Below are positions 814-33,273 of a DNA stretch of 64,000 nucleotides, in pieces; within the stretch, counting starts at the first letter, position 1, and the number at the start of each line of letters is the position of its first letter. The DNA comes from Blepharisma japonicum (taxonomy: Eukaryota; Ciliophora; Heterotrichea; Heterotrichida; Blepharismidae), in the NCBI GenBank assembly GCA_949751835.1, contig CATKHK010000061.1:62001-126000 (forward strand), read 5' to 3'. The notes beneath the pieces are model-generated. The model was not told the DNA's origin, made no database searches, and saw only the letters and a list, made by a program, of their open reading frames with translations. Made by a program: the position numbers and the translations under genes.

Positions 814-3800
814 TTATGTAGGAGTCAAAGAACTTTTAAGTGGAGTCATTGATTTAATTTTTCTTGGATTGAGTTCTGTCGCTTCAAGCTCTGTCACATT
901 TGTAACATTCGCTGCTGTTTCTTCTTCTGACCCATCGCTTGGTTCGTTTTCCAAAGTAATAACTTCGTCTGTAAACTGTATTGATCCATGGACCCTATTG
1001 AGCCAAGGTGCTTCTAATTTTAGCTTGAGCTTTTCAACGCTCAGAAGTTGCTTTGCCTTTTCTTCCACTTCAAATTTCATTACCGGCACTTTAATTCTCG
1101 GCAATGATATTGAAGGTCTTATCTGGATTTTCGGCAAATTTTGAAACGGTAAATCAATTAAAGGAAATAATAGAGCAAATGGATTGCTGGTATTTAAAGG
1201 AAGGACAATAGACGGTTCATTGCTACTGAAATTACTATACAAAGATGGGTCGCATAATAAAGACTCGTTGAAATATTTCTCACTGGACTCTGTATTATTC
1301 AAAGACTTCTCTACAGCGCCTGCTAAAAATAGCATGCTTCCTCGATGCTGATTGTTAAGAATTTCAGATAAATCTTGAAAAATCAGCAAAGCGTGATTGG
1401 GGTTTAACTAAATTTGCTTTACACTAATATTACAAACTGCGATGTTATAGAGGACTTCACAATTCTCTTCTTCAATGGAGATTGCGTCTTCAGGAGGGAG
1501 ATTTTCGATGTTGTCGACTTGGATTGTGTCTAAAATCGTTTGGAACTCATAGATAGCTTGATCATATAGCTCAGAGTACATAAGAAAAACGCCTTTAAAA
1601 AGCCGTAAACTTTTATTATCAAATATTTCTCTCGTACCGTCTTCTAGTAACTCGGACATATAAGTGTTGGCTCTTTGGAAATTTGCTTTATCAAATGGCT
1701 TTTCAAGAAGCTCTTTTAGGTACTTTAATATGGTAATATCTTGTAGCAAGGATTTACTTGGCTTGAGATTTGATACTTTAATTAATTCATTGTAAGCTTC
1801 TTCTAAATTGTTGAGGATTATTTGGCACATTCCGATCTGGTAGCTTGTTTCATAGCTAAAGCTAAGACTATTCGCAAAATTAAAAGCATTTATTGCGTCT
1901 TGGACTGAGCCAATAATCATAAAAATATTTCCTGCTTGTATATGAGTTTGAGGATCATCATTATTTTCGTTAATATACTTTTGAAAATCTTCAAAAGCTT
2001 TATTAGAATCTCCACTGAGAAAGAGGCATCTAGCCCTGTAATAATATGCATCTTTAAAAGATTCATCTATTTGACAGCAAACAGAAAAGTCGTCAATAGC
2101 TTCTTTATAAAGCCCTAAGCTTGCATAGATCAACCCTCTTAAAAGGTAATGCTCAGCATCGTTATTTTCTGACTCTGAAATTGCGTTATTAACACTATCA
2201 AGCCCGGCAGATCAGTCTTTATTTAAATATTTTATTACTGCTCGATAATATAGAATCTCATAATCATGCTCACGGCCTTTTAGTGCTTTTTCTACAAGAT
2301 CATTAACCATCTTCAAAGTTTTCATATGATCAGTGTTCTCACTTTTTACATGGCAAAGCAGCAATGATGCATTTAAAATATAAGGGTCTGGATTTCTAGG
2401 AAATAACTTATGGGCCTTTTTAAATTGCTGAGCAGCCTGCTTAACATCATCTTCAATAATTAATTTCATTCCTAAGCAGAGACATTGATTGAACTTTGAA
2501 GGCTTGTCAAGCTTGGCAATTAAGCAGGATTTTCTGAAATCTTTTAAAGCTTTGTCATAATTTCTCTGCATAATGTACCCGTATGCTCGACAATTATAGC
2601 AGCTGCTCAAATACTCATTTATGACGCTGTCATTTCTCTTAATCAGCTTTGAAAATGATTTTATTCCTACTTCAAAATTTCGCTTTATCAGTTCTATTAC
2701 TGACTCTGCATAAATTCTTAAGCTTTTTTGGTTCTGATCTTCATCTTCTGAACTTATTCTTTTAAATGTATGCAATGCTCCGTAAAAATCTTTTTCCTTG
2801 ATCTTGATAGTGCCAAGGTGGAATATTGCCTGGCTTAAAAATGATCTCTCTTTATCAAATTTTATGCATTGCTCAAAACATAAGGTTGCGTCAGATATTT
2901 TGTTTATTTTTAGCATCATTAGTCCTTTTTCAAAGTTTGCTTCAGAGCTGTCAGGCTTTAATGAAAGAAAAAGGTCTATATCTTCAATAGATTCAGTAAA
3001 ATTGCCTATTGAATTATAAATTTTGGCTCTTTTTAAAGCTGCTTCTGGCGGACAATCTTCAAGGGCTAGAGCTTTTGTTAAAATCTTTATTGCAGATTCA
3101 TTGTCGCCGATTCCAGAAAAGCAATCTGCCATTCCGAGAAATGCTTGAGCTCTATCAAAATTTTGCTTCAAAGCTTGGGCAAAATCTTTCAAAGCTTTTT
3201 CATGTCTTCCTTGCTTCAAAAAAAGATAGCCTCTATCTATATAGCCTTCAGAGAACTTAGGAAATTTCAAAATTCCATTCGAAATTCACTTCAGAGCAGA
3301 ATTTATATCATTAAATGCTGCATAGCACTTGCTTAGTTCCAAATACGCATTTTTGGAATATTTCGGGTTCAACTTGAACATTGTAAGAAAATCTGAAATT
3401 GCAGACTCATATTCATGTAAATTTGCATGGCAAATAGCTTTATTATAAAGTGCAGCTACATTTTCATGATCAATCATGAGTATTTCTTTTAAATATTCTT
3501 TCGCCTTTAAGAACTCCTTATCCCTTATCGCATCTTTTGCAGTTTCAATCTGAGAATCAAAAGTGTTGAATAAATCTTCAACGACTTCTGATTTAAATTT
3601 TTGTTTTCTAGATCTAAAAGATTTCATTTCACATACAGAGCTATTATTTTGTCTCCGAAGAGAATTATTTCTAATTCTTGAAAGAGGTGAAACATCTTCA
3701 TAAGCTGCGAATGATTTGTTGATTTTTGGACTTGAATTTTTTCTTGACCGAATTGAATGAGAAGGACTGCGAGATTTTTTCCCTGAAGTTCTGACACGGA

Positions 3801-4241: not shown

Positions 4242-5699
4242 TTACACATGACTAATTATAATTTTTTGGAATTCATTAAAATCAATTTCTCCATCCATAT
4301 TCTCGTCTACTTCGCCAATAATTGCAGCCCAAACTTTATTTTCTGAAGAAGCTTTTCCTTCTAGCATTCTCTTTACTTCTTGCGCAGAAATGGATTGATT
4401 TCCATCTTTATCAAATGCATCAAATGCAAGCTTCATATTTTCTGATGATTCCAAAATTTTCCTATCCATTGTCGCTTTTAAAAATTCAGAATAATCTATA
4501 AATCCACTGTGATCAGTATCGACCTCTGCCATAATTTTTTTTACTTCTTCATCAGCTGCTTCATCGCCCATAATTGTCATGAATTGGGTCATTAACTCTT
4601 CTCTGCTTAACTTTCCATCATGATTTGTATCGATGGCTTGAAAAATGTCACGTAACATTTTTATGTCTTTCAGAGAAATGCACTGAGTTGTTATAAAAGC
4701 ATCTATTGCATCTTTTAACTTACTTGAAGCGTGAAACTGCTGAAGACTTATTAGCGCTGACTGAATTAATTCAGGATCAAGAGATGATATTGAAGCATTT
4801 CTTGTCATTCAAGGATGAGCAAGCGCTTGAGAAGCTGATAATCTTATCGAAGCTGGGCACAATAATTCAGAAATCATATTTTTTCCTGCGTTAGAAATTG
4901 ATCTCCATATTTCTCCTTTAAAAGTAAATTTGCCTCTCTTTACACATTCAATGATTTCTTCATCATTTTTCCCATCAAAAGGAGGATGCCCACACAATAG
5001 AATATAAAGAATCACTCCACAGCTTCACATGTCACATTTCTCATTATATGTTCCAGAAAGAACTTCTGGAGAAATATAATATGTTGTCCCCAATGTTCCT
5101 TTTATTGATTGGCCTTTCACAAACCGTGTGCTTGCTCCAAAATCAATTAGTTTTATGTTAGAAATGTCACCCTCTTCCTCAAGCAAAATATTTTCTGGCT
5201 TTATATCTCTGTGAACAATCCCAGTTTCATGAAGATATAAAACTGCAGAAAATAACTGGCACATTATTTGTGCAGCTTGAAGCTCATTAAAGTTTTGCCT
5301 CTTAATAATTTCAGCAAATAATTCACCGCCTTTACAATTTTCCATTACAATATAAAATCTCATTGAATCTCCAAAAAATTCATATATTCTGATTATATTG
5401 GGGTGATCCAATATTTTAAGAGTGTCAAGTTCATTTATAAGGATTCTTTGTTTATCAGGCTCTACTGCTAGATCTTTTCGAAATATTTTAACAGCACGCT
5501 CAGCACCTGTTATTAAGTGAGAGCATAGCTTGACATCCCCAAAAGCCCCAGATCCTAATTTTTTGCCTAATTTATAAACATCTTGAAATCTGTGCTCATT
5601 TTCAACTAAAAAGATTGAAGGCTGAATTCTGAGATCAGCAACAGTAGAAATTCTCAATGCTTGAGAATTTGCTTCCTTTTTACTTGTTCCACAACCCAT
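4242..5699 (-). CDS. calcium-dependent protein kinase (CDPK), 485 aa
   Basis: A Ser/Thr kinase fused to a calmodulin-like domain, so Ca2+ activates the kinase directly. It begins MGCGTSKKE, a Gly2 myristoylation plus Cys3 palmitoylation signature implying membrane attachment. Kinase landmarks are LGSGAFGDV (P-loop), AERAVKIF (Lys), IVHRDIKPENILL (catalytic loop), KLIDFGAS (DFG) and YYISPEVL. Conserved tryptophans after EKCDM and after ALAHP are both TGA codons. The junction helix follows at about residues 300-350. Four canonical EF loops come next: DTNHDGKLSREE, DTDHSGFIDYSE, DKDGNQSISAQE and DENMDGEIDFNE. There is no intron; the stop is TAA. It is head to head with the calcineurin A gene across 307 bp. 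A second CDPK lies at 12358-13863. Confidence 0.95.
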
Positions 5700-6006
5700 T
5701 TATCTCAATAAAAAAAAGTATATATAATAGGATGCACTTTTGATAGCAAGAAGACTCGTGTAGGCTTAGAAATTATTATTTCTTCTAACTAGTAAATACT
5801 ATATATAAAAATGCTATAAAACTATTGCAAGATTGAATAAATGCAATTTGCAGATAATATGTCATGATGCAATTTACTCTTATATGCATCAAACTGGAAT
5901 ATAAAATATAATAGTTATGACTTGAAAATAAGATAATAATAGGTGCTTAATCATACACATTTTATTTTAAATTAAAGCACATAACCTTATTATAAAAACG
6001 CTTAAA
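5700..6006. promoter_or_regulatory. divergent promoter region between CDPK and calcineurin A
   Basis: 307 bp separate the two start codons of divergently transcribed genes. The region is AT-rich with no open frame, and has TATA-like stretches (for example ACTATATATAAA near 5800). It must hold both promoters, by position only; no specific element can be assigned. Confidence 0.45.
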
Positions 6007-7419
6007 ATGGAACCTCTTTTAAATCCTTTACATGACAGAATTGTATCGGATTTAGATCCTCCTCCGCACAGACCTCTAGAACGATCTCAATTATATCCAA
6101 GAGGTATTGCTTATCCTCCAGACTGAACTAAATTACGAAACCATTTAGCTTCAGAAGGAAGATTATCTAAGCAAGACTGTCTTTTATTAATAAGGCAAGC
6201 AACTGACACATTTAGAAGAGAAAGTAACGTTCTCGAGCTCAAAGAGCCAATTAATGTAATTGGTGATATTCACGGTCAATTTTATGATCTTTTACAGCTT
6301 CTTGAATCAGAAGGAGACTTTTCTCGCTTCAAACATCTTTTTCTAGGCGACTACGTCGATCGAGGCTATTTCTCAATAGAAGTTGTGCTGCTACTATACG
6401 CCCTCAAGCTAAATTTCAAGCAAAATGTATATCTCCTTCGCGGAAATCATGAATCAAGGCAAATTACAAGCCATTTCAACTTTAGAAGTGAATGTCTACA
6501 CAAATTTGATATAGAAATCTACAACGCATTCATGGAAAGCTTTGATGCTCTTCCAATCGCATGCATTGTTAACAATAAGTTTTTAGCTGTCCATGGAGGA
6601 TTGTCACCCGATCTTGTAAATATCCAAGATTTATCAAAATTCAATAGATTTACAGAGCCACCCAAAACAGGATTATTTTGCGATATCTTGTGGAGTGACC
6701 CTATTGATCATGAGCAAGGAGTTTGTCCTGAAATATATGCAGGAAATGGTGTAAGAGGTTGTGCTTATTATTTTGGGATAACTGCACTGAACTCTTTTTT
6801 GCAAAAATCCCGTCTTATTGCTGTTCTTAGAGCACATGAAGTCCAGAAAGAAGGATTTAAAATGCATAGATGGCATGGGGCTAATGAATTTCCTTCAGTT
6901 ATCACAATATTTTCAGCTCCGAATTATTGTGATGTTTATAACAACAAGGCTGCTATTTTGAAATTTGAAAATAATCAACTAAATATACAGCAGTTTAATT
7001 ATACAGCGCACCCTTATATTTTGCCCGATTTTATGCTGGGTTTTGAGTGGAGTTTGCCTTTTATAATTGAGAAAGTGATGGAAATAATGGAAAATGTTCT
7101 GAAAAATACTTGCGATTCTGAACCCTTGATAAAAAGAACTTCAATGGCAGGAGATAGGGTTAAGCAGTTTAAAGAGGACTTTAAGGATAACAGAGAAGAA
7201 GTCATGCGGGCTAAAGTAACAGCAGTTAACAAAATGATAAGAATTTTCAGAACTGTGAGAGAAGAACAAGAAGTTATTTTAAGGCTTAAAGGACTGTGCC
7301 CTGATAATAAAATTCCTGTTGGGCTTATTAGACAAGGAAGAGAAGCGATGCTGAGTGCAATTGACTCATTTTCGAAAGCGAAATCATATGATTTGATAAA
7401 TGAAAAAAGGCCAGATTAA
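6007..7419 (+). CDS. PPP3C: calcineurin A (Ca2+/calmodulin-dependent protein phosphatase catalytic subunit), 470 aa
   Basis: A metal-dependent Ser/Thr phosphatase (PP2B). The start is the ATG at 6007, with one TGA-coded Trp in the N-terminal PPDW motif; without this code the N-terminal 126 residues would be lost. Metal-site motifs are GDIHGQ (residues 86-91), GDYVDRG, RGNHES, then the histidine in AVHGGLSPD and FSAPNYCDVY. The segment FMLGFEWSLPFIIEKVMEI is the calcineurin-B-binding helix. Residues around 395-420 (VMRAKVTAVNKMIRIF) match the calmodulin-binding helix, and VREEQEVILRLKGL with following residues fits the autoinhibitory region. It is therefore full length, with both regulatory segments intact. 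No intron; TAA stop. It sits divergently beside a CDPK gene. Confidence 0.96.
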
Positions 7420-12357: not shown

Positions 12358-13863
12358 TTAAGCATTCAAAATCTTATCGGTAAGATATTGCTTAAACTCT
12401 TCTAAACTGATGACTCCATTTCCATCTTTATCAGCTTCTGAAAGAAACTTGCTCCATTCAGAGTCTTCAATCCCAGGTATGCATTCTCTAAGCTCACTTA
12501 GCGAAAGCTGTCCATCTCCTCCTTCATCATATAATTTAAAAGCTCTCTGAAGCTCTTCTTTCTGAATGACTTTATTCCAAGTTGTAGCAGCAGTCAAAAA
12601 CTCAGTATAATCAATAAATCCACTGCCATCGCTATCACAGTTCTTCATAATCTCCATCACATCTAGCTGTGAGCCTAGTCCAAGAATTGAAGAGCCATCA
12701 GAAATTTCTTTAGTGCTTAATCTTCCATCTCCATTTTTGTCTAGTTGCTTAAAAAGGTTGACTAAATCTGACTCTTCAGAAGGACTTGATACTTGTGCAG
12801 TAATAAAAGTAAGAATTGATTTTTCCAGTTTGGATTGAGCCTATATAAGCTTTACTCTAAACTTGTTTAATTGTTCGAATGCTTGAGTATTAATTGGGTT
12901 ATCTTCAACTTCTCCATTGATATGCTGCTTTATCCATCTATGATTCAAAACATCACTAGCACTAAATCTTGAAGCAGGATCCACACAAATCATTTTACTA
13001 ATCAAATCTTTGGCATCTTCAGAAATACTTGGTCATATTCCTTTTGCCATATCAGGCTGGCCAGCTCTTATTTTTTTTAGAACTTCAACTTCAGTGTTTC
13101 CTACAAAAGGTGGTCGTCCGCCTGCGTAAAAATTACATATCATTAAGTATAAAATCACTCCTGAGCTCCATATGTCACATTTTTCATCATAAGTCCCAGA
13201 AAATACTTCAGGAGCCATATAATAAAGCGTTCCTATAGCAGTTGTGAGCTTGGATCCAGGCGATAATTTTTGGGATATTCCAAAATCAATGACTTTTAAA
13301 GGAGCATTTGGGTTGTTATTCACAAGAAGAAGGTTTTCTGGCTTTAAATCTCTATGGACAATATTCTTTTGATGGCAGTAGTTAATCGCTGTAACGATGT
13401 CGTGAATATACTTCGCAGCTATTTTTTCACTAAACCTCATATCTTTTAAGACTTTGTCAAAGAGTTCACCACCAGTCAGGAGCTCTGATACAATATAATA
13501 GCATAAATCTGACTCAATTACTTCAAAAACTTTCAAAATATTGGGGTGGTCCTAATTATTTTTTACCATTTCTTTTAGGAGTTCTACTTCCAAAAGCATT
13601 TGCTTTTCAGAGCTAGGGTCTAGTTTGGACTTTGGAATTTCTTTAATTGCGCGTTCAAGACCAGTCCTCTTGTCGATGACTTTGAAAACTGTTCCGAATC
13701 CTCCACTTCCAATGGTTTTAACAATGTCGAAATGGTCTCTAACCAAACCTTTTGTGGTCCTGACGAAATTTCCTTTGCTAATGTTTGAGGAGTCTGCTCG
13801 AAGTCTTCCTTGAGCGCTTTTGCTTACTGGTGGATTCACAGGGTGAGAATTACAGCAACCCAT
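12358..13863 (-). CDS. calcium-dependent protein kinase (CDPK), second copy, 486 aa, three introns
   Basis: A kinase fused to a calmodulin-like domain, starting MGCCNSHP (myristoylation and double palmitoylation signature). Three 15-nt introns are placed. At 13552-13566 splicing restores LKEMDHPNIL. At 13122-13136 (GTAATTTTTACGCAG) the intron is in frame and stop-free, and its removal turns MICNFYAGGRPPF into the family-typical MICGRPPF. At 12841-12855 the intron lies between the kinase C-lobe and the junction helix. Kinase motifs are GSGGFGTVF, ERAIKEI, IVHRDLKPENLLL, KVIDFGIS and YYMAPEVFSG. The EF loops are DKNGDGRLSTKE, DSDGSGFIDYTE, DEGGDGQLSLSE and DKDGNGVISLEE. A Trp after AKGI is TGA. 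It is diverged from the CDPK at 4242-5699, so not a recent tandem duplicate. Confidence 0.95.
13122..13136 (-). other. cryptic in-frame 15-nt intron in CDPK gene
   Basis: GTAATTTTTACGCAG has length 15 and no stop in the reading frame, so translation would pass through it and insert five residues (in NFYAGG). Its removal gives the normal spacing of the kinase segment before PPF. GT...AG ends and length match the other introns of the window. Confidence 0.85.
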
Positions 13864-14170
13864 TAAATATGATTTATAAGTGTTTTATTAGTAATAAATT
13901 ATTGACAAAAAAAACTGGAATTTTAAATAATCTAAAATTTATATGAAACTGATGAAGAATATTAAAATAGAGTAAACAAATATTTTTTTGGAAGCAAATT
14001 TCTTGTAAAAATCATTATATTTGAAAATAAAAGACTCCTTTCTGGTATGGTAGGCTTAAATAGCCCTATTAATATTTTTATAAAAAATGTGTAATCAAAT
14101 TTGACTTTTTTAAAGAATAAAATTTTCATGTAAAAATTTTATAGAGAAGAAATCTTTATTATAAAAGAAT
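13864..14170. other. intergenic region between divergent genes
   Basis: 307 AT-rich bp lie between the start codons of the second CDPK (minus) and the B-box-like gene (plus). They must contain both promoters by position. No specific element is recognised. Confidence 0.45.
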
Positions 14171-25171: not shown

Positions 25172-26870
25172 ATGGGAAACTGCTGTCCACATAAGTAAGT
25201 GATATATTAGAAATCTAAAGTCAATAGCAACAATCCCAGTGAATTCATCTATTATAAACGAAATCCAGCCTAAAAAAATTATTACACAGCCAGTCAAAAA
25301 AAGTGTGAAATTTGTAAATCACTTCGGAAAAAATTCAGGATCAGAAGAAAGTCCATATGAAGATTGAAATAAAAACGCAAAGAATGCAAGAAAAGAGCCT
25401 AAATATTTAGAAATAAATACATATTCTTCTGGAGCCAATATATATGAAAGTGAAGAAAACCTTAGGCATGACTTATATAAAGATAGTGAGATGGCATCAG
25501 ATATGCAAACTGCTGCGATTGAAGATTTTATAAGATCTCGAAAAGGAACCACAATCATTCATTCTGCGATTGAAGATCCTCCAGAGGACACAAGTAAAGT
25601 CCAAAGAATCACAAGTATATCGCTGACTTATTCTGAATCAGAAAATTTTCAAAACCAATCAGATGTTTCTAAGAAAGATTCATTTGAGAAAGGTCTGAAT
25701 GATTCAAGAAGCAAAGAATTTCCTTCTTCATCATTTGGGTCAATAAAGATTTCTGAGCCTTCATCAATTGATGAAAAAATCAAGAAAAAAGAGGAGGATC
25801 CCAATCTTTCATATTCAAGCGAAAGTAGCAGCGATTTATCTCCTCCACCTCTTCACAGAAGTTTGGAACGGAATTCAGAATCCTCTGAAGAATTCGTCCC
25901 AAATTCAATTGAAACTGTTCTCGCAAACTTCAAACTATCAAGTATTAGTCCAGATAAAAATCAGAGCAAGCATCAAAAGCAGAATTCTTGTGAGTTGCCA
26001 ACTTACAAGAAAAAATTCGATAGTGAGAGCAGTTTCCCTGAAAATTCTGCTTCAAAGAGAAACACAGATTTTGTTGTCAATTTTGAAGACGGCTCAAAGC
26101 AAATCAATCAGTATAAGCTAACAAAGCGTCTTTCATCAGATTCATTTTATAAGACATATTTAGCAATTGATAAAGAATTTAACCAATTTATAGTGAAATG
26201 CTATGATAAAAAGCTTCTCCAAACAAAAAGTATGGGAAATGGGAAAAATGCTCTTGATAAAACTATTGAAGAAATCAATTTGGCTCGTCGACTTAACCAT
26301 ATATACATACAAAAATTAGTAGAAGTCATAGACTCAAAAATCAATGGAAAGCTCATTTTAGTACTAGAATTTGCATCAAATGACAAATTTAAGAGAAAAC
26401 TACCAATTATTGAAGCAAGAGCAAGGAGATATTATAGGCAACTTATAAGTGCTGTGGATTATCTTCATAATGAAGCATTTATAGCTCATTTAAATATAAT
26501 TCCTGAGTCTGTATTAGTTGATACTAATGAAAATATCAAATTAACTGATTTTAGCCTTGCACAGCCGATAATAAATGGTAATGACGACGCTTGCTGGATT
26601 CATAAGCATGACTTGCGAGCTCCAGAAATAAAATCAAGCCGACGAACTTTTAAAGGCCGAGCTGCTGATGTTTGAGGAACAGGACTTTGCTTATATTTTT
26701 GGGTTAATGAAAAATACCCAGAGAGACAGCATAAGTTTGATAATGATGAGCAAAATGATCTAACCGACTTGCTAAGCAAGCTTCTGGAGGAAGATCCAGA
26801 AAGAAGAATTTCAGTGAATTCAATAAAAACACACCCGTGATTAACTTGTAATGGACGCAATCCTTTGTAA
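25172..26870 (+). CDS. CaMKK-like pseudokinase, 560 aa
   Basis: ATG at 25172 gives MGNCCPH, a myristoylation/palmitoylation-type N-terminus. A 16-nt intron (25195-25210, GTAAGTGATATATTAG) splits codon 8; removal leaves 561 codons to TAA at 26868. TGA-coded Trp appears at YEDW, AADVW and THPW. Residues about 25-300 are Ser/Glu-rich and disordered. The kinase-like domain (about 305-545) retains the VAIK-type Lys (FIVKCYDKK) and the ALDK...EINLARRLNH stretch typical of CaMKK/LKB1-upstream kinases. The glycine loop is replaced by LSSDSF, the HRDxKPEN loop reads AHLNIIPES (Asp and Lys lost), and DFG reads DFS. It is thus probably catalytically dead, acting as a membrane-tethered scaffold or allosteric partner. 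The CaMKK relation is from memory of the family. Confidence 0.85.
25195..25210 (+). other. 16-nt intron in pseudokinase gene
   Basis: GTAAGTGATATATTAG, length 16; it splits a Lys codon (CAT AA|A). Removal joins the MGNCC leader to the long downstream frame, which otherwise has no ATG for 100 codons. Confidence 0.85.
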
Positions 26871-30660: not shown

Positions 30661-32379
30661 TTATTCGTTTTCTAACGGTCTCCCATTATTCATATGATTT
30701 AAAATATCTTTTGTATACTTTATTCTTTTGCACAGATCAAGATCGCCACTTTCGTAAGCTTGACCTAGTGGCATTGATTGTTTAGCACCTGATTTATTTA
30801 CAAAAATAATGGTTTTTGTCGATATAATTAGTTCAGAATGGTCTTGAAAAACAACTTGCACAACTTTATTCGACATCCTAAATAGAATGGCCCTTTTTGT
30901 CCTCATTCATTTCTTTACATATGGAGCTTCGTCAGACTGAAAATATTCAGGATTTTCTTTATCGGTATCTAAGTAGCCTTTGAAATGGTGCAAAAGGGTA
31001 ACTTTTTTATGAAGAGACTGAGGATAATCAATTAAAGTATGTCAGTTCATGATGTCTTTTTTTTCTTCATCTCTATAAATATACCGAAATGAGTCTGAAA
31101 CAGGGTCTAAAACGATTTTTGTAGCATCATTAAAGTAGACTCCAATTGCCCCAGTTGATAAGGTGTAGCCTAGACCATATTTGCTGCTGTAATCCACCCA
31201 CCTATTTATGAAAGGAGTTTTGATTTCTCCATTGAGAGCAGATAGGCTTGGAGTTTTGTGCGTAGAAGATGGAGTTCTTTGAGTGTTTGACGCATTTCTG
31301 TATGAGCTTAAAGCGTGAGTGTTTGATGCATTTCTACATGCGCTGAAAGCGTTCCTTTCATGCATAATTGGGACTGTATCAGAGCTTATTTTCCGAAATA
31401 TTAATTTAGCCTTAGGCATGTATTGGCTTAGAAAGGACTCTGAAGGAGGGATTGCAAGAGTGCTTGGAGGTAAAAATTTAGGTATTTCAAAACCCATATT
31501 GAAAAAGGCATGTTTATACATATCTTGTATGGATAGTCTTGACTCTGGATCAGCTTGCAATATTTTTTCTATTAGATCTTTGGCTTGGTTCGATATTTGC
31601 ACGTGCTCTGGAAATGAATATGAGCAATTTCTAATTTTTTTGTAAGTAGTTTTTACATCATTTGTTTCAAATGGAGGCTTTCCTATTAATAAAGTATATA
31701 AAATCACCCCAAATGACCAAATATCAACTTCATAAGAATGGCCTTCTCGGCTTTCTAAAATTTCTGGAGCGATATAATTTGGTGTTCCACAGACAGTCTT
31801 TCTTTTTTGTCCTTCAAATTCTAGCTTTGAAGCCAATCCGAAATCCCCCAGCTTTATTTCCAATTTTTCATTTAAAAACATATTTCCCAGCTTCAGATCT
31901 CTATGAATAACTCTATGATTATGCAAATATTCTACTGCTGACAGCGTTTGAACCATATAAACCATCGCTTCAAGCTCAGTAAGTCTTTTTCTTCTTCTTA
32001 AAAGTTCATTTAATGTTTGATTTATACAAATTTCAAGCAAAATATAAACATTTTCATGATCCTCAAAAAAATGCTCAAATCCAACGATGTTTGGATGCTT
32101 TAAACTTTTGTGTATTTTTATTTCTGACATCAATTTTTGCCTTGTCCTTGACTTGGTAAGGTTTGACTTGGGAATTACCTTTGCTGCGTAGTTCTTTTTA
32201 GATTCTAAATCTTGGAGTTCATACACACGAGCAAATCCACCTTTTCCTAAAAATCGGCCCTTACTGTAGCGTTTTATAGATACACTACCTCTAGGGCTGA
32301 TTACTTTTTCTTCAATTACTCCTTCAAATATTGCAGCTTCTTGTAAGCTGGCGGCTGAAGATCTAGATGTTAGTGACAT
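30661..32379 (-). CDS. PLK: polo-like kinase, 572 aa
   Basis: A Ser/Thr kinase of the polo family, controlling mitotic and basal-body events. The kinase domain occupies about residues 37-291: FLGKGGFARVYEL, NYAAKVIPK, VIHRDLKLGNMFLN, KLGDFGLAS and CGTPNYIAPEI. The link after it is Ser/Asn/Thr-rich with a repeated RNASNT unit (SACRNASNTHALSSYRNASNT). Two polo boxes follow: INRWVDYSSKYGLGYTLS (about 393 on) and VKKWMRTKRAILFRMSNK (about 490 on). TGA codes Trp at IMNW and VKKW. It is typical in length and domain order, so it should be active and phosphopeptide-directed. No intron; the TAA stop is 18 bp from the convergent gene. Confidence 0.95.
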
Positions 32380-33273
32380 TGTTTATGAATATTAAACTTT
32401 TAACGGAAAAGTTATAACAGTTGTCTTTAAGAGAATTTAAAAATGGATAGTAGAGATATTTGAGGTGTGGGAAGCAGTGAGATGTTAAAGTTTAATTGCA
32501 TTTTTTAATGAAAAAAATAATAAAACTAAAAGAGGTAACTTAATATTGCATAGAATTTTAACTATTCACAATTTAAGGATTATTCCAATTAGATTTAGGA
32601 TATATGCACGAATCAAAAGTTAAATTTCAAAATTTTAATATTTTATATCGATTTCATTCTTTCTTTGTTGTGCTAAGAGTTGAGAGCACTTTCAGCCAGA
32701 AGAAGATAATGCTCAATGGCTGGAGCAAAAGTTTGAGTGTGAAAATATGATGCTATATTATTCTATATCATTCAAATCAGACACAGCATAGCATTCGTAT
32801 AGATATTTCAGATTAGGAGTGCTCTTGTTGGCTTTTATTTGTTGCCAATGTGGAGCTCTATTTCTCCAGGTGATGAGGGCAACCTATAGTGTTTTTGAAT
32901 TAAAGATTTTGGAGATTTATCATCAACCATACCAGCTTTAATAGTATAGAAACTGTTATCAATTGTAGTAGCTTGTACATTCCAATCAACAATATTATAA
33001 TTGACAGATTTAATTGAGTTATTTTATAATCATCTATATACACAATCTATTAAAAACAACACAGGCATTATTATAGCTTCTAATAATTCAAATATATCTC
33101 TAATATAGTTATTTGAATTAATCAATATTAATGATTGAAATAATTTTTAGAATAAATACCACTTTCTGCAAAAAAATCAGCTCATTCGATCTCTTATACA
33201 TAACTTGATTTTTCAAGATCATTGGATTGGACCTTCATCCCAACTCAATAAGTATCATTAAGGAATTTTAAAA
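32380..33273. other. intergenic, AT-rich, with a possible ORF relic
   Basis: About 890 bp lie between the divergent polo kinase and MTHFD genes. On the minus strand from about 33023 to 32849 there is an open stretch of some 60 codons (VDWNVQATTIDNSFYTIKAG), ending in TAA and without a family I recognise. It may be decayed coding sequence. The rest shows no feature. Confidence 0.4.

Follow-up and report, generated by a model that had tools for sequence, protein, structure and literature searches.

A CaMKK-clade pseudokinase with a dismantled nucleotide site and a candidate lipid anchor in Blepharisma japonicum

The ciliate Blepharisma japonicum carries a pseudokinase gene at positions 25172-26870 (+ strand) of the stretch analyzed here, a window of 64,000 nucleotides (nt) from contig CATKHK010000061.1 (positions 62,001 to 126,000). 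The product is 560 amino acids (aa) long, and sequence, tree, and predicted fold all place its kinase domain in the CaMKK clade. The nucleotide site and the catalytic machinery of this domain have been dismantled, with much of the kinase scaffold kept. The gene itself is intact, coding, and without a close copy in a search of the genome. Judging from the residues that are lost, the protein probably does not phosphorylate, ATP binding is also unlikely, and the protein probably acts by holding or regulating partners. Taken as a whole, the reading proposed here is that of an acylated, non-catalytic partner in the CaMKK branch with a dismantled ATP site, and our confidence in that whole is evenly balanced.

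A kinase domain of the CaMKK clade

Pfam matches residues 319-552 to PF00069 (2.5e-30), placing the domain in the kinase fold. The best solved relative by sequence is CaMKK2 (6e-30), and a Foldseek search with the predicted model returned only CaMKK1/2 at ranks 1-17. For comparison within the genome, the domain was aligned with 31 other kinase rows from 28 distinct places (alignment A2; L001/L023, L003/L029, and L006/L021 are duplicate fetches). These kinases rank among the top matches to PF00069 or the query and are not a random sample of the kinome, and 45 of the 75 query matches lie outside the set; A2 excludes L017, L018, L020, L031, L032, and L038, which have TAA/TAG within the match, and L009, which is the window gene itself. 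A tree was built from 30 of the 32 rows of A2, pseudokinase included, and two human fragments, with L019 and L036 dropped as short. In this tree, the pseudokinase, human CaMKK1/2, and four paralogs with intact motifs form a group of seven with support of 100/99 against the 25 other rows. An initial annotation of the window had proposed a CaMKK-like kinase fold, with a structural model as a check; sequence, tree, and Foldseek agree on the CaMKK relationship, and the model of residues 300-560 has the fold as well. Within the clade, a grouping with L012/L014 has support of just 56/73, and three alternatives are not rejected (p-AU 0.25-0.52).

The features of the domain are as follows.

26085-26867, + strand: pseudokinase domain as modeled (residues 300-560; AlphaFold2 pLDDT 86.5, pTM 0.87)
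26133-26150, + strand: degenerate Gly loop S-S-D-S-F-Y, residues 316-321 (alignment A2)
26487-26510, + strand: degenerate catalytic loop HLNIIPES, residues 434-441 (alignment A2)
26547-26555, + strand: DFS replacing DFG, residues 454-456 (alignment A2)
26709-26756, + strand: short linker in place of the missing alphaG (alignment and model)

The catalytic machinery is lost and much of the scaffold is kept

The available text of PMC4718504 defines a pseudokinase by loss of the VAIK Lys, the HRD Asp, or the DFG Asp. Here the HRD Asp is Asn436, and the Gly loop, HRD Asp, catalytic Lys/Asn, and DFG that mark a functional CaMKK are all altered. The glycines of the Gly loop are replaced by S316, D318, and Y321; the first two are Gly in 24 of the 24 comparison rows that reach them, and at the third position 18 of these rows have Gly and 6 have Ala. 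HRD reads H434-L435-N436, the catalytic Lys is I438, the catalytic-loop Asn is S441, and DFG reads D454-F455-S456. The Arg, Asp, Lys, and Asn of the catalytic loop and the Gly of DFG are kept in all 31 comparison rows, and the pseudokinase keeps none of the five. The initial annotation had listed the Gly loop, HRD Asp, catalytic Lys, and DFG Gly as replaced and the VAIK Lys and APE as retained, a description that holds in full; it had also allowed that the catalytic residues might lie elsewhere in an alignment, and A2 has the replaced residues at the aligned positions.

Further changes were absent from that description. Specifically, the beta2 Val is T323, the VAIK Ala is I335, the activation-loop Gly is H472, and the Gly and Phe expected at 508 and 512, after alphaF, are E508 and E512. 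The alphaG segment is deleted: the 26 comparison rows that extend beyond this point have 14-15 residues here, and the pseudokinase has 0. In the model, too, no helix lies between alphaF and alphaH (residues 208 to 225 of the modeled piece). What is kept includes the VAIK Lys337, the alphaC Glu362, His434, Asp454, Phe455, the APE Glu480, the alphaF Asp494, and the alphaI Arg540. Of the 38 positions that at least 90% of the comparison rows share, the pseudokinase keeps 26, and the losses fall on 9 of 13 ATP/catalytic versus 3 of 25 other positions (Fisher p = 6e-4, with the classes set after the list was seen).

The gene is intact, with a predicted 16-nt intron

The gene starts at an ATG at 25172, stops at a TAA at 26868-26870, and has three in-frame TGA codons read as Trp, all in exon 2. 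According to the available text of PMC9942806, introns in Blepharisma stoltei are mostly 15/16 bp and UGA is reassigned to tryptophan. The gene model and the N-terminal features are as follows.

25172-25194, + strand: exon 1, 23 nt, encoding MGNCCPHK with the last codon split; candidate myristoyl/palmitoyl N-terminus
25195-25210, + strand: intron GTAAGTGATATATTAG, 16 nt; if retained, a stop follows after 8 codons
25211-26867, + strand: exon 2, encoding a Ser-rich N-terminal region (residues 9 to ~304) and the pseudokinase domain
25272-25331, + strand: most basic 20-residue stretch, KKIITQPVKKSVKFVNHFGK, residues 29-48, net charge +6; possible membrane-binding patch

Unspliced, the frame of exon 1 reads MGNCCPHK and then TAA. 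The frame of exon 2 is open back to 25125, and by eye there is no ATG upstream in that frame. As initially annotated, the MGNCC leader is reached only by way of the 16-nt intron, and the spliced frame joins exactly. An intron call from pattern alone was rejected, as the window shows no excess of the loose GTAA..AG pattern at 16 nt (n = 8, with counts of 18, 16, 10, and 13 for lengths of 15, 14, 17, and 18 nt, respectively); the call is made from the frame, the MGNCC motif, and the tiny introns known for the organism. A CDPK gene in the window (minus strand, ~12361-13884) has two 15-nt introns, GTAAAAAATAATTAG and GTAAAGCTTATATAG, both of which end in an in-frame TAG. This CDPK starts MGCCNSH, and naive calling of open reading frames breaks the gene into three.

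At the base composition of the gene, a run of 560 codons lacking both TAA and TAG would arise by chance with a probability of ~8e-16. A codon-usage score was trained on 11 neighboring genes with Pfam matches, with leave-one-out scoring for those genes. In frame, the N-terminal part scores 0.19 and the kinase part 0.14, within the 0.09-0.20 of the 11 neighbors; for the upstream spacer, every one of the six frames gives a negative score. The closest other match to the pseudokinase in the genome (45 Mb, 224 contigs) is 35% identical. Because its codon usage is as coding as that of neighboring genes, the gene is not obviously a decaying copy; the initial annotation had given a lone decaying copy as something that would refute it, and the open codons and the normal codon usage of the two halves show no visible decay.

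The N-terminus is a candidate for lipidation

The 45-Mb genome contains 22 MGNCC-coding starts and 0 instances of the reversed pattern; at that density, the chance of an MGNCC within ~100 nt upstream in the right orientation is ~2e-5. An N-myristoyltransferase gene is present (235 bits), and two of the intact paralogs start in a similar way, L010 with MGICC and L011 with MGTCC. From these sequences, N-terminal lipidation and a membrane location are plausible. An acylated N-terminus would hold the pseudokinase at the membrane, as can be guessed for the two MGxCC paralogs. The MGNCC sites (e.g., L057, L065, L068, and L069) are candidate dually acylated proteins genome-wide, and at least L057 has a kinase match shortly downstream. 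An in-frame stop follows within 30 codons at 4 of the 20 other sites read, so these are possibly not simple gene starts.

Ahead of the kinase domain, the N-terminal ~300 residues are Ser-rich. Likeness to L010 and L011 in this region, apart from the start, is weak at best. In local alignment of the whole N-terminus, 63 and 92 of 500 shuffles were as good for L010 and L011, respectively, and in global alignment 4 and 12 of 500; homology beyond MGxCC is not claimed. For the first 70 residues, 137 and 28 of 2000 shuffles were as good with MGxCC included and 65 and 981 without it. For the basic stretch, 65 of 2000 shuffles match L010 as well as the real sequence does, so its likeness to L010 falls short of significance.

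How might a nucleotide-free pseudokinase act?

In PKA numbering, Val57 and Ala70 lie along the adenine pocket and are part of the catalytic spine; Phe at a catalytic-spine position blocks ATP while scaffolding persists, and Val for Ala in KSR1 did not block (available text of PMC12721161). Ile335, at the Ala70 position, is intermediate between the blocking Phe and the non-blocking Val. In VRK3, Thr stands at Gly50 and Asp at Gly52, the Lys72-Glu91 pair is intact, the pocket is filled, and no nucleotide is bound (available text of PMC4718504). The Blepharisma pseudokinase is like VRK3 in that the first two glycines are substituted (Ser, Asp), the Lys72-Glu91 pair is kept, and the adenine pocket is changed; it adds a Tyr at the third glycine. 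It differs from VRK3 in belonging to another kinase family, in having a predicted rather than a solved structure, and in its candidate lipid anchor. With Asp and Tyr in place of the second and third glycines and Ile in place of the Ala of the adenine pocket, the pocket should be blocked or filled and the lobes joined without nucleotide. Given this likeness in residues, a closed, nucleotide-free, VRK3-like pseudokinase is to be expected.

What would such a protein do? From kinship, its job would most likely lie in the branch that runs from CaMKK to SNF1/AMPK-like kinases, where it would serve as a non-catalytic, membrane-bound partner, binding either an active acylated CaMKK, as a STRAD-like helper or a competitor, or an SNF1-like substrate. 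Candidates for both are encoded in the genome. The four intact CaMKK-clade paralogs (L010, L011, L012, and L014) have complete motifs, and nine distinct comparison kinases have, by eye, an activation loop of the form LxTxCGxPxYxAPE. We take this loop to be AMPK-type and these kinases hence to be candidate CaMKK substrates. The intact CaMKK kin and the SNF1-like kinases thus give the pseudokinase plausible kin and substrates, and an MO25 gene is present. A more specific proposal is that, on the other of the branches that activate AMPK, ciliates arrived independently at an arrangement like that of STRAD, in which a lipid-anchored, nucleotide-free pseudokinase with an Ile-filled catalytic spine controls acylated CaMKK paralogs allosterically at the cell cortex. 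We regard this as quite improbable; under it, the loss of alphaG would make the partner surface one-sided.

With the pseudokinase, this one protist has at least five genes of the CaMKK clade; the products of three of them begin with MGxCC and lack a tail. It may be, speculatively, that membrane anchoring replaced calmodulin control in part of the CaMKK family. L010 (C138) and L011 (C27) are also like the pseudokinase in having a Ser-rich N-terminus of ~300 residues and a kinase domain at the extreme C-terminus. They differ in their intact HRD, DFG, and Gly loop; the kinase domains are only ~35% identical to that of the pseudokinase, and the tree does not establish a sister relation. The two lie in a duplicated block (C138 ~34.7-45.1 kb, L039/L040; C27 ~262-278.5 kb, L042/L044) in which the CaMKK pair is 65%, a 1390-aa protein 69%, and a 270-aa protein 57% identical, which suggests segmental or whole-genome duplication. 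Kinase genes adjoining L010 and L011 suggested that the window might be a third copy of the block, an idea that was rejected, as the window neighbors show no sign of membership (84-kb C61 stretch versus two 30-kb stretches). In L012/L014, a putative 15-nt intron (GTAATTGTTATTTAG, GTAAGAGTTATATAG) interrupts the tail (~1340-1410, minus strand), and after the intron comes a shared basic KLYGRKWK segment, a possible calmodulin-binding end. We take this tail to resemble the CaMKK regulatory tail.

Alternative explanations

The gene could instead be an inactivated paralog on which constraint has relaxed, with a frame that is still open and a function that is no longer needed, which we consider unlikely. 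Several observations favor it and weigh against the reading of a non-catalytic partner: the pseudokinase branch is the longest in the tree (2.29); no close copy exists, the next match being 35% identical; 38 of the 85 columns that are identical in the four intact paralogs are changed, mostly at non-catalytic positions, which does not suit a purely selective loss; those paralogs could cover the job; and one antisense frame of the N-terminal part scores 0.146, so the codon score is not fully specific. Relaxation fits poorly with a frame of 560 codons that has neither TAA nor TAG and whose codon usage is normal in each half. It also fits poorly with the places at which family-wide invariants are lost, which are catalytic, with the APE Glu, alphaF Asp, DFG Asp/Phe, and alphaI Arg retained; moreover, ~35% identity would imply an old divergence, over which an unconstrained frame should have broken. 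The retention of Lys337, Glu362, and Asp454 would also suit an unorthodox enzyme that binds nucleotide through these residues and has weak or non-kinase transferase activity. Indeed, ATP binding without a cation is known in some pseudokinases, such as STRADalpha (available text of PMC4718504). Such an enzyme is very unlikely here, with three glycines, the HRD Asp, the Lys, the Asn, and the DFG Gly lost together, the adenine-pocket Val/Ala replaced, and alphaG missing.

The acylated, non-catalytic partner would lose its anchor if translation began at an internal Met (e.g., residue 102) or if the MGNCC end were unacylated. Both are made less attractive by the low chance of an upstream MGNCC (~2e-5), by the exact joining of the spliced frame, and by the MGxCC starts of two intact-motif paralogs; they gain from the unenriched 16-nt pattern and from an atypical Pro at position 6, which none of the 20 other MGNCC sites read, out of 21, has in that place. 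Pro6 fails the PS00008 pattern, as does position 6 at 10 of those 20 sites. An anchorless protein is, on balance, fairly improbable. The initial annotation had suggested that the protein could scaffold or sense calcium signals next to the CDPKs and calcineurin of the window. For such a calcium sensor or a calmodulin-binding scaffold speak CaMKK ancestry, the basic stretch at residues 29-48, and the content of the window. A functional CaMKK has a C-terminal autoinhibitory/calmodulin-binding segment. The pseudokinase stops directly after its kinase domain, at the stop that follows HPWLTCNGRNPL, by eye no 15/16-nt GT..AG intron is found at this stop, and among these proteins only L012/L014 continue into a CaMKK-like tail (15-nt intron, basic segment); calcium sensing is therefore unsupported. 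Pfam finds only the kinase domain, with no EF hand or other domain beside it. As for the proximity that the annotation invoked, a CDPK with EF hands (4245-5699), the second CDPK (~12361-13884), and a calcineurin-like phosphoesterase (5971-7416) are in the window, 11-20 kb away, and of the kinase genes found, the closest (30664-32382, minus strand) encodes a Polo-like kinase with POLO boxes. In a eukaryotic genome this dense in genes, neighborhood counts for little as evidence, and a functional link through it is not supported. A calcium role is thus hardly to be expected.

On the downstream side, a gene runs from 27013 onward (+ strand) and starts MESLPLFDLQTREPLNFSLPEDTFCLLVFFEIKQF, which, by eye, we take to be a putative thioredoxin/peroxiredoxin-like opening.

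Significance and comparison with known systems

Pseudokinases arise across many kinase families and are already known as a kind, and ciliate kinomes probably include some. For example, the available text of PMC3341644 describes 38 kinase-domain genes of Ichthyophthirius that fall into no group as likely pseudokinases. No description of a CaMKK-clade pseudokinase was found among the literature matches listed (titles and abstract starts), and among these the present one is new. Pattern scans matched 5 stretches in a viral contig collection and 58 in a prokaryote contig collection, with 0 relatives in either. If the protein does partner its own kin, it would be a test case for a kinase family controlled by one of its members without chemistry, in a group with much expanded kinase families.

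How does the pseudokinase compare with named relatives? CaMKK1 and CaMKK2 are its best sequence and Foldseek matches, and its kinase domain ends HPWLTCNGRNPL where that of CaMKK2 ends HPWVTRHGAEPL; unlike them, it is without a catalytic loop, ATP site, alphaG, or C-terminal tail, and it starts MGNCC. Kin of CaMKK1/2 also include yeast Sak1/Tos3/Elm1 and plant GRIK/SnAK. LKB1 is an AMPK-activating kinase, and its partner STRADalpha is, like the protein proposed here, a pseudokinase tied to such a kinase; the Blepharisma genome includes an MO25 gene. STRADalpha differs in belonging to another family and in binding ATP (available text of PMC4718504), and a partner complex in Blepharisma is a proposal. 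KSR, of which KSR1 is a scaffold (available text of PMC12721161), and CASK, a pseudokinase treated in the available text of PMC4718504, are likewise signaling pseudokinases, but they come from other families and have other domain make-up.
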